DNA from: Ceratodon purpureus | Lineage: Eukaryota > Streptophyta > Bryopsida > Pseudoditrichales > Ditrichaceae | Assembly (NCBI GenBank): GCA_014871385.1 | Contig: CM026422.1 | Span: 12,376,831 to 12,440,830, forward strand | Reading direction: 5' to 3' | DNA length: 64,000 nt | Shown: piece after piece, positions 39,232 to 63,970 of the stretch | Numbering within the stretch: position 1 is the first letter of the stretch | Layout: every line of letters starts with the position of its first letter | The notes under the pieces: model-generated | Database searches by the model: none | What the model was told of the DNA's origin: nothing | Seen by the model: only the letters and a program-made list of their open reading frames with translations | Program-made: the position numbers and the translations under genes

Positions 39232-40055
39232 TGTTAGCCGGGTAATACCATGGAGATGTCCGAGGGACAGTACGAGGGGAAGTGAAAATGAAGCTTTAGT
39301 GGAACAGGGGAGTAAACCTTGGTCCAAGGCGAAATGGGTCTTTAAAACCCCGGGAGTTGGGATGTGTGGAAGAGCCTGATCATGGGGTTTGACTTAGCCA
39401 GTCTGAACTCCAATCACCATGAGAGCTGGGCCGTCGTGGCTGGTCAACTCCAGGGTGTTAGCCAGGCAAGTAGGGAAGTTCCCTCTGGCCCAGGGCAGCA
39501 AGGCCGCCACATTGAGTTAGGTAACGACTCGAGTTCCTCGATGCTAAGGACAGCCAAGGCAAGGCGTAACCCTGGAGACCTTAACTTCCACGGGCGCGGT
39601 GTCTCGAGCTATCCGTGGATCAGCTCCAAGGAGACGCAGAGTGTTCACAGGACCGCGTGGGTCGGCTAAGAACGAGGGCTAAAGGCGTGGGAGAAAGAGA
39701 AGTCCATACAATAGACACGATTTCAGCATAGACTAAGGCGCATGCATACAAGATGATGCAAGATAGAAGGCAAAATCAGTAGTCCGTGTTTCATAAGTTA
39801 GATACAAGCCCAGCGGCTGAAGAGTCCAGGCCTCGTGAGATTGGACGCTAACTCTGTTTAACATGGAAGTGTCTCACTATGTAATTCTACCTTCTTTTAT
39901 ACTGTAATAAAACCCTAATTGTGCCCCTGGTGTTCCCTCGGTCGTGACTCCTCGGTCGTGGCTCCTCGGTCGTGGTCCTCGGTCCTCGTTACTGTAGTCA
40001 GTAACACTATTACAAACTTCTCGGTTTAGAGCCAACTCTCGGGATTGGCCTTACC
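39232..40055 (-). mobile_element. 5' LTR of the Ty3-type element
   Basis: The plus-strand edges are TGTTAGCC (39232) and TTACCA (40055), fitting TG...CA LTR ends. The inner edge abuts the primer-binding site and gag. A TATAAAAG box is present on the minus strand at 39894-39901. The left edge is firm and the right edge is approximate. From 39468 onward this LTR is also the first part of the 5.98-kb tandem array, and its sequence recurs at every unit junction. Confidence 0.75.
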
Positions 40056-40245
40056 AGATTAGTCATGATTGTGATTTTCTTTACGTTTATATATATATGT
40101 TCTTTTATATGATATGTCAGTATCCGTTTGATACAATTCATATTTCGAATTCTAAAGTCAATCTGTATGTTGGGTGTAAACCACTATCTCGAAAACGACA
40201 TTTATAAAATGAAAACGTCTGCTACTTTTACTAGGTGATAACAAA
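40056..40245. other. Short AT-rich link between LTR and tRNA-like repeat
   Basis: No gene. A TATATATATA run lies at about 40088-40098. The same text recurs in each unit at +5980, +11960 and +17940. Confidence 0.5.
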
Positions 40246-41170
40246 TTCTATACTTGTCAATGTCTATAGGGGCTTTTATTATTACCCTATTAGCTCAGGA
40301 TAGCTGCCTTGTGCGCAACGCGATGCTCAAACGAGCCCGATGGGGATCGAACCCGGACCTCCACTATGCCATCGTAATGTCCAAACCGTCCACATCATCA
40401 AATGAAACGATGAGACAGTTTCTATTACGGAAAATTGAATTATATAACCTTTTTCCATTTATATTTTTTTCTTTATCATTATTGTTTCACAACATGCGCA
40501 GTACTCAATAATTTTAAATTGAGTTGTTTATGAATTGTAATCATGAGCTACGCCCTCAAGAAGAATTTGTAGAGTAAAGTACACGCGGCAAAAGTGACGA
40601 ATCCTAGAAGTCAACATTGCATGTAATCTCATAAGGTGGATGGGAAGACAATTTGTTTGCATAGCGAAGGTGCGGGTTCGACCCTCGTCGGGCTCGTGTG
40701 AGCAGCGCGTTACATAAGAGGCAGCTATCCGAGGATGTAGTATGGATCTCTAGGGTTCTTCGCTATCGTTGAATTTTTGTTGTATCTTCATGATGACGTC
40801 AGCCCTAATTTATCCCTAAACCCTATACCCAAAAACAATTTTGAGCATTACCCTAAACATATGTTCAATTTAACCTTTAAATAGTTCTTTATCCAACTAA
40901 ACCGTTCATCAAAATGATGATATTAGCCCTAATTTCAATATATTCACATAAAATCTTGAAGATAATGCAAATCACCTAAACCTGCGAGGTGGGACCCACA
41001 TTTAAAGAAGACACCAAACCACGGAATTAGGGTCCCTAAACCCTAAAAATAGACCGTTATAAATAGTACAGTATAAAATTGAGTGGTAATAGGGTACCTT
41101 ATTTTGTAAAGAAAATGTTATAAAATAGTCAAAATTGTCCCCTCACCGCTCACCGCTCTACGCTCACGCC
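40246..41170 (-). repeat. tRNA-like dispersed repeat, also in units 2-4
   Basis: The reverse complement follows the repeat at 34268-34830. It has a GGTTCGATCCCCATCGGGCT tRNA-like T-arm (near 40321-40345), a second plus-strand tRNA-like copy with GGTTCGACCCTCGTCGGGCT (about 40674-40694), 'GATGACGTCAGCCCTAA' near 40791 and the GTAGAGC motif at the outer edge (about 41150). The copies at 46226-47150, 52206-53130 and 58186-59110 are identical by eye. An 85-codon open frame across it (40254-40511) is an accident of the repeat. Confidence 0.65.
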
Positions 41171-61956: not shown

Positions 61957-63387
61957 TGCTTCCACCTTCGAATTTCCTTCCAACTTTATGTTCAAACCCC
62001 AACAACCGCCCAGATCTAAAAAGCCCTAAATCGCCAGAACAGCAAAAATTCGTTCTCAACCACACGCCTCTCTCAACAAGGCTCAACCTTCCAAACATAG
62101 ACAAGATATCTCCACCAAAACCTTCTCTCCTCCAAGCCTTAAATATAGTCTATCTAAAATCTTTTACTTTCTAGTTCCAAAATAAATCTAGTCCATAGAT
62201 CTTGAAATCTTTTACTTTCTATTTCCAAAATAAATCTAGTCCATAGATCTTGAAATCTTTTACTTTCTATTTCCAAAATAAATCTAGTCCATAGATCTTG
62301 AAATCTATTACTTTCTGTTTCCAAAATAAATCTAGTCCATAGATCTTGAAATCTTTTACTTTCTATTTCCAAAATAAATCTAGTCCATAGATCTTGAAAT
62401 CTTTTACTCTCTGTTTCCAAAATAAATCTAGTCCATAGATCTTGAAATCTTTTACTTTCTATTTCCAAAATAAATCTAGTCCATAGATCTTGAAATCTTT
62501 TACTTTCTAAAAATAGTCACTAGTTTGCCATTGCTCATGATAATTTTCCTCTCAGAAGATTGTCTCTAATATGATTGCCTATTGGTACTTCTTGTTAGTG
62601 AGACGATGATTTGTGATCATGTGCAGTGAAGTAGCAAGCACTGTTATATTATACATCTAAGGTAAAATACCCTATGAGCATCAAACTAAACTCTAAGCAA
62701 AAATCAAGGCTGAGGAGAATATTCTAAATAATTTTTAGAGGTAGACAAGAAAGTGAAAACACAATATTGCAGTTAACAATGAATTAGATATGAATTTGCA
62801 AAGGTGATGGAGCCCTCCTTCCTAAAGCATCACTAGACTACTTCCATGAACACTAGAAAAAATCTTATGTCCACCATATTCACATCCTATGAAAACCAAA
62901 TCCTAGCTCAATCATCCCTCCACAATAGTGTCCGGGAAGTTTTTAACCCTTTAACGCATTGGCATCAAGAATCTGGACGCCATATGAGTTTGAGGAGCGT
63001 GATTTCTGTGGTACCGGATGTTTTTTATCCATTTTTTTATTTTTTAATTCTTGTGCTAATCGAATACCATTTGTACCGTATGGATCTTCAAAATAAGATC
63101 TTGTGATTTTATGAATATCCATAGAATTGGTTTATGTCAAGTTTCATTATGAGTTCAAAAAGTGAGATCTTAAATATGATTTTCCAAAATAAGTAGAATT
63201 AAATAATGGAAATTATACCATCACATAGTGCATGTTTTTCCAAATTCGTACCAAATTTTTTCAATAAAAAATTGTTAATTTGGAAATTTTAATTGAATTT
63301 CAAAAGAAAAGCTTGCAAAACTAATTTAAAATTATTGATGACTTTTTTGATAAATCCGACCGCACAAATGTGATCTCTGATCACAGT

Positions 63388-63970
63388 AAGTAGGGAAGTT
63401 CCCTCTGGCCCAGGGCAGCAAGGCCGCCACGTTGAGTTAGGTAACAACTCGAGTTCCTCGATGCTAAGGACAGCCAAGGCGAGGCATAACCCTGGAGACC
63501 TTAACTTCCACGGGCGCGGTGTCTCGAGCTATCCGTGGATCAGCTCCAAGGAGACGCAGAGTGTTCACAGGACCGCGTGGGTCGGCTAAGAACGAGGGCT
63601 AAAGGCGTGAGAGAAAGAGAAGTCCATACAATAGACACGATTTCAGCATAGACTAAGGCGCATGCATACAAGATGATGCAAGATAGAAGGCAAAATCAGT
63701 AGTGCGTGTTTCATAAGTTAGATACAAGCCCAGCGGCTGAAGAGTCCAGGCCTCGTGAGATTGGACGCTAACTCTGTTTAACATGGAAGTGTCTCACTAT
63801 GTAATTCTACCTTCTTTTATACTGTAATAAAACCCTAATTGTGCCCCTGGTGTTCCCTCGGTCGTGACTCCTCGGTCGTGGCTCCTCGGTCGTGGTCCTC
63901 GGTCCTCGTTACTGTAGTCAGTAACACTATTACAAACTTCTCGGTTTAGAGCCAACTCTCGGGATTGGCC
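63388..63970 (-). mobile_element. Terminal LTR fragment at the right end of the array
   Basis: Has the unit 2-5 base at all six variable LTR sites. It follows the LTR up to GGGATTGGCC and then switches to unrelated sequence (ATCAGACTGTTG) at 63971. This looks like the original second LTR fragment flanking the ancestral single gene. The last 30 bases of the window are unique flank. Confidence 0.8.

Follow-up and report, generated by a model that had tools for sequence, protein, structure and literature searches.

The window, by which we mean the whole stretch of DNA analysed (64,000 bases, no N, 40.7% G+C), contains a head-to-tail array with a period of 5,980 bp. Its units start at 39468, 45448, 51428 and 57408, unit 4 runs to 63387, and the opening 583 bp recur a fifth time at 63388-63970 to close the array on the right. 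As listed in Table 1, this 583-bp fragment is present at 5/5 boundaries, both array ends included. Self-BLAST aligned 39468-57990 with 45448-63970 at 99.96% identity (7 mismatches, 0 gaps), and the leftmost fragment (39468-40050) with the rightmost one (63388-63970) with 6 mismatches. Chance is excluded as the source of a near-perfect 5,980-bp tandem. Each unit holds a DHX15/Prp43 gene, and the four 719-codon open reading frames run from ATG to stop without an internal stop or an intron in the coding sequence (CDS) and are identical at the DNA level. The original prediction had described four intact 719-residue DHX15 copies in 5,980-bp units; self-BLAST, a column-by-column comparison and the identical reading frames all confirmed this description.

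Table 1. Coordinates of the array, its genes and the adjoining retroelement remnant in the window.
Feature	Position	Strand	Remarks
Gag and weak aspartic-protease ORF, Ty3/gypsy remnant	37061..39199	-	
Primer-binding site, tRNA-Arg type (presumed)	39211..39228	-	2 mismatches in 18; 0.02 expected by chance
Likely complete 5' LTR, 775 bp, TGTTA...TAACA	39232..40006	-	TATA-like motif at 39901; 5' end inferred
Boundary fragment 1 (type 1), 583 bp	39468..40050	-	runs on leftwards into the remaining LTR and the gag-pro remnant
Unit 1 body, 5,397 bp	40051..45447	.	SINE-like inverted repeats, DHX15 gene, promoter minisatellite
DHX15/Prp43 copy 1, 719 aa, intronless	41857..44016	-	stop included
48-bp minisatellite, 7.4 copies in every unit	44217..44569	.	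directly upstream of the TATA-like motif at 44207
Boundary fragment 2 (type 2)	45448..46030	-	
DHX15 copy 2, identical CDS	47837..49996	-	
Boundary fragment 3 (type 2)	51428..52010	-	
DHX15 copy 3, identical CDS	53817..55976	-	
Boundary fragment 4 (type 2)	57408..57990	-	
DHX15 copy 4, identical CDS	59797..61956	-	
Right terminal boundary fragment (type 2)	63388..63970	-	flank from 63971, with 30 bp of flank within the window

DHX15/Prp43 is a DEAH-box helicase known as Prp43 in yeast, DHX15 in human and DEAH2/DEAH3 in plants, and Prp43 has a role in both splicing and ribosome assembly. The array gene covers the RecA1/RecA2, winged helix, ratchet and OB domains, with all five of the Pfam families DEAD, Helicase_C, HA2_N, HA2_C and OB_NTP_bind over the cut-off. 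All seven helicase motif strings sought were present. Its best solved relatives were DHX15 chains (1108-1110 bits), followed by ddx-15 (1044), 9l5r and Prp43 chains (939-953) and DHX8 (759); we take the source organisms of the matched chains to be human, worm and fungi. On sequence similarity, the array gene is nearer to DHX15/Prp43 than to other DEAH helicases. It shared 474/672 residues with DHX15 chain 8ejm and 447/669 with ddx-15 chain 8ro1, and the two chains shared 516/669 with each other. Among the 516 columns common to 8ejm and 8ro1, 96 were altered in the array gene, a count that takes these two non-plant chains as its yardstick, and 28 of these 96 had a negative BLOSUM62 score, including L183W, P394Q and G434R. 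A comparison of the protein with viral contigs gave no match.

We considered whether the intronless gene represents the ordinary locus. A review table gives two DHX15/Prp43 loci in Arabidopsis, two in maize and one in rice (PMC5809497). In an older table Arabidopsis has one more locus, which has the HA2 domain alone, and At3g62310, one of the two full-length homologues, carries an 'AltA' entry that would imply an intron (PMC545797). Taken together with the intronless CDS of the array, this entry makes a retrogene origin of the array DHX15 plausible, and the array gene may be a retrogene-like extra paralogue rather than the housekeeping locus. A flanking target-site duplication was sought among the five direct-repeat families of the unit, but in no family did copies outside the CDS lie to its left as well as to its right. 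A search for four poly(A) signal hexamers in the ~455 bp behind the stop gave no match, and the longest T run on the plus strand behind the stop was 5 within 500 bp and 7 down to the unit edge. Poly(A) traces and a target-site duplication could be lost from an old retrogene.

Left of 39468 lies a Ty3/gypsy remnant on the minus strand, with a gag match at an E value of 8e-15 and a protease match below the cut-off. The primer-binding site at 39228-39211 resembles that of the tRNA-Arg type. Since TGG follows 3 bp behind TAACA, the 3' end of the LTR was placed at 39232. Between 39000 and 40200 the minus strand has two TGTTA sites, one of which begins at 40006 and matches the TAACA end. The LTR thus likely spans 39232-40006, and so starts outside the interval of the original prediction; its 5' end may possibly lie at 40056 (TTACCA) instead of 40006. 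A DNA-pattern search for the LTR start with a 20-50-base gap gave no match, the real gap being shorter. Another candidate placed the 3' end of the LTR at 39419, next to TGGTGAT as primer site; it was dropped because the primer-site match at 39228 is better.

With the LTR ends placed in this way, the 583-bp fragment probably consists of 539 bp of LTR, which is the LTR minus 236 bp of its U5 end, plus 44 bp from outside it (40007-40050). Each of the five fragments holds one copy of this 44-mer, and the window has no other exact copy. It had been proposed that every boundary is a fragment of a complete Ty3 LTR at the left edge. The LTR, gag and primer site bear this out in part, but the fragment also holds the 44 bp that probably lie beyond the LTR. 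The Ty3/gypsy remnant has TG..CA ends, a primer site and gag, with a single LTR. Neither a second LTR nor a further fragment copy was found left of the array within the window, and the lack of a second LTR there marks a remnant rather than an intact Ty3/gypsy element. Reverse transcriptase and integrase had no Pfam match among 23 ORF entries, which include the gag-pro ORF twice in two lengths and nine entries from 28 kb-36.4 kb. The gag protein likewise had no match among viral contigs. We rejected the idea that DHX15 is a cDNA captured between LTRs: beyond the left LTR, on the side away from DHX15, come the primer site, the leader and gag, which places the gene outside this element. In addition, the fragment to the right of DHX15 is missing the U5 end and, by eye, has no primer site behind it.

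The upstream region of each gene contains two candidate promoter elements. For copy 1, a TATA-like motif at 44207 precedes the ATG by ~190 bp and adjoins the minisatellite. The 583-bp fragment lies about 1.4-2 kb upstream of each gene in the same orientation and carries a TATA-like motif as well, at 39901 in the leftmost fragment and at 45881 and its counterparts upstream of the genes. A sense-orientation LTR fragment with a TATA-like motif about 1.9 kb upstream, in addition to the gene's own minisatellite-bearing promoter, would be the basis for a possible re-regulation of each copy. We consider it improbable, however, that an intronless Prp43 paralogue was amplified and re-regulated by the retroelement, and that the array raises or redirects the helicase and has been kept by selection.

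Several other repeats occur within the unit. A 21-nt A+T-rich inverted repeat with 2 mismatches (40500-40520 and 45383-45403) has arms that flank DHX15 in each unit. A pair of this kind was matched in 0/60 first-order Markov controls of the two flanks, a comparison made post hoc, and no target-site duplication was seen at the repeat by eye. It could be a DNA transposon remnant or a coincidence. SINE-like repeats with a tRNA B-box-like stretch, recognized by eye, stand in inverted orientation in every unit (40247-40451 and 40631-40730 in the first), and a diverged relative lies at 34622-34825. Scans of the window for tRNAs and Rfam families gave no match.

Elsewhere in the window, a second tandem array at 13658-20780 comprises five noncoding copies of 1,421-1,428 bp without a long ORF. 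Two base columns and the length of poly-T vary among its copies, and the last copy differs by a few bases at its end. It shared no match longer than 60 bp with the DHX15 array among the self-BLAST matches listed. A 1.1-kb inverted repeat pair, 97% identical, occupies 1244-2333 and 30786-31882, ~28 kb apart, and more diverged direct copies that partly overlap this repeat lie at 9009-9910 and 11994-12848. Exons of a Foie-gras domain, which we take to be the N-terminal part of TRAPPC11, lie on the plus strand at 23668-25487, and a weak Gryzun-like match under the cut-off lies on the minus strand at 21567-21866, as if parts of one trafficking gene stood in opposite orientation. Weak matches under the cut-off were also found to a FAN1 helix-turn-helix (35661-36008, minus strand) and a Myb/SANT-like domain (33318-33629, plus strand). 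The plant-type telomere repeat occurs at 29293-29341 as seven GTTTAGG copies; together with the general gene content, this TTTAGGG-type repeat points to a plant host. An imperfect palindrome at 36773-36984, just past the end of the gag-pro ORF, is built from a 20-bp G+C-rich repeat.

To locate the differences among copies, we compared the whole array column by column at period 5980, which returned 7 variable columns in total. At six of them (39511, 39526, 39561, 39566, 39690 and 39784) the leftmost fragment differs from the four others. Hence the original prediction was correct that the six differences of unit 1 all lie left of 39785 (39511-39784) and that the right terminal fragment is of the other type. 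The three internal junction fragments are of the right-hand type at 6/6 sites. The leftmost fragment's differences are confined to its left 317 bp, while the right 266 bp are identical in both terminal fragments; a post hoc calculation gives a probability of 0.026 that all six sites would fall within those 317 bp by chance. CpG/CpA pairs make up 4/6 of the differences, with CpG retained at two sites per type, a pattern that fits two old fragment copies ageing separately.

The seventh variable column, missing from the original prediction, lies at offset 4851, with A at 44319 and 50299 and T at 56279 and 62259. It sits within the 48-bp minisatellite and is the sole difference among the unit bodies. 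The A form at 44319, AAATCTATTAC, recurs in the next minisatellite repeat (A at 44367, and in copy 3 too), so the difference in this column may reflect conversion from repeat to repeat instead of a point mutation. Unit bodies differ at no more than 1 position per 5,397 bp versus ~56 expected at the divergence of the fragments (P(≤ 1) = 4e-23), where both the expectation and the probability are overstated because coding DNA is constrained. Compared with the two fragment types, the units are thus either much younger or more strongly homogenised. The order A,A,T,T agrees with stepwise addition of single units once the variant existed, and disagrees with a doubling of a two-unit block. It also fits a single exchange between A-type and T-type arrays, or a wrong joint between haplotypes.

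This last option is one form of a broader concern, that assembly error accounts for some or all of the array, through expansion of one or two real copies or a join of A-type and T-type haplotypes. A haplotype joint would give a single difference among unit bodies in the block order A,A,T,T, but would still need two A-type and two T-type copies, so tandem duplication remains. Near-zero divergence across 24.5 kb is also the product of a wrongly expanded assembly, and the presence of a second near-identical array in the same window adds to the suspicion. However, the copies of that second array vary in poly-T length, as separate copies would, and the unit-1 fragment and the right end of the DHX15 array join different flanks. 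On balance, we regard an artefact as unlikely, although its probability is far from negligible.

The array, the two fragment types, the intact identical genes and their intronless state can be read from the sequence itself. As their most likely origin we infer, with moderate confidence, a real and recent tandem amplification by unequal homologous recombination between direct 583-bp repeats. The starting segment would have been 5.4 kb long, with one complete DHX15/Prp43-like gene, its own TATA-like promoter and a promoter minisatellite. This segment would have come to lie between two direct 583-bp copies, each composed of a shortened LTR and, probably, 44 bp of the DNA next to it, and would then have been duplicated through unequal homologous recombination between the 583-bp stretches. 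Later misaligned exchanges, mostly by one unit, would have produced four copies and held them identical. Because the 44 bp that probably lie beyond the LTR are common to all five copies, two independent LTR insertions are disfavoured, and the second 583-bp copy, and with it the first repeat pair, probably arose by copying or duplicating a segment. The second array has no similarity to the LTR, which shows that the tendency to form tandems in this window is independent of this LTR.

The fragment types also bear on where exchanges would have occurred. All six sites show the right-hand type in the internal fragments, so an exchange that passed into the left-hand copy would have to have done so right of 39784, as originally predicted. 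Exchange between internal copies leaves the terminal fragments untouched, so identity of the right 266 bp needs conversion or chance. The proposal of repeated unequal crossing-over between two LTR copies therefore stands with respect to an array bounded by direct repeats and the existence of two types, but leaves unexplained the 44 bp of probable non-LTR sequence and the identity of the right 266 bp. The recent dosage increase of the original prediction is no more than a possibility, and the intronless gene may be an additional paralogue.

Two other routes to a real array were weighed against this evidence. Integration of circular DNA (a single 5,980-bp unit that a rolling circle may have multiplied) into an LTR at this site by homologous recombination would, in one step, predict terminal fragments at both ends, virtually identical copies and the type switch right of 39784. 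Nevertheless, the A,A,T,T site would require an additional change, and the 30-bp right flank, which is too short to judge LTR continuation, does not significantly resemble the unit side. A weak likeness to the unit, noticed by eye beyond 63970, was equalled by 24-27% of random stretches. We accordingly give integration of a circle little credence. The other route is an older end-joined tandem duplication (45447 to 39468) with concerted evolution and a later truncation of the last unit at 63970. The diverged left edge and uniform interior would agree with it, the six differences being an edge that escaped homogenisation, and the 44 bp common beyond the LTR would come free. It nonetheless needs an extra truncation exactly within the fragment, and the right edge is undiverged from the internal fragments, which together make end joining quite doubtful.

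Should the array prove real, the locus would be a clean case in which pieces of a retroelement frame the tandem copies of a core RNA-processing gene. Marker differences within the array limit where exchanges took place, and with the refined boundary (LTR piece plus 44 bp) relatives would offer a test of how the first repeat pair arose. With Prp43 acting in splicing and ribosome assembly, any effect on dosage and any variation in copy number between individuals would be directly measurable. Interest in the locus would grow if the copies proved real, expressed and variable.

Tandem amplification bounded by mobile elements is an already known type of event, of which EPSPS in Kochia (Bassia) scoparia is an example. 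Among the matches listed from the open-access literature, no title concerned a tandem plant DHX15 array or a DHX15 retrogene. The array gene resembles DHX15/Prp43 in its complete domain set and motifs, with DHX15 chains as its top matches. It is set apart by its CDS without introns and by its four adjacent copies, against the one or two loci per plant in the review table (PMC5809497). A survey in plants lists tRNA-Arg among the primers of non-chromovirus Ty3/gypsy elements and sought TGG 0-5 bp behind the LTR (PMC6317226). Like the Ogre/Tat/Athila superclade described there, the remnant combines gag and a weak protease with a tRNA-Arg-type primer site that follows the LTR by 3 bp; unlike those elements, it has no reverse transcriptase or integrase match among the scanned ORFs and no second LTR in the window. 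For Kochia EPSPS, the authors proposed two mobile-element insertions on either side of the gene followed by unequal crossing-over (PMC6808082). At both loci, mobile-element sequence marks the boundaries between tandem gene copies. By that same account, however, Kochia EPSPS has repeats of 32.7 and 56.1 kb, a 16-kb element and herbicide selection, whereas the DHX15 array multiplies a core RNA helicase in 5.98-kb units bounded by a 583-bp LTR-containing fragment, under no known selection.
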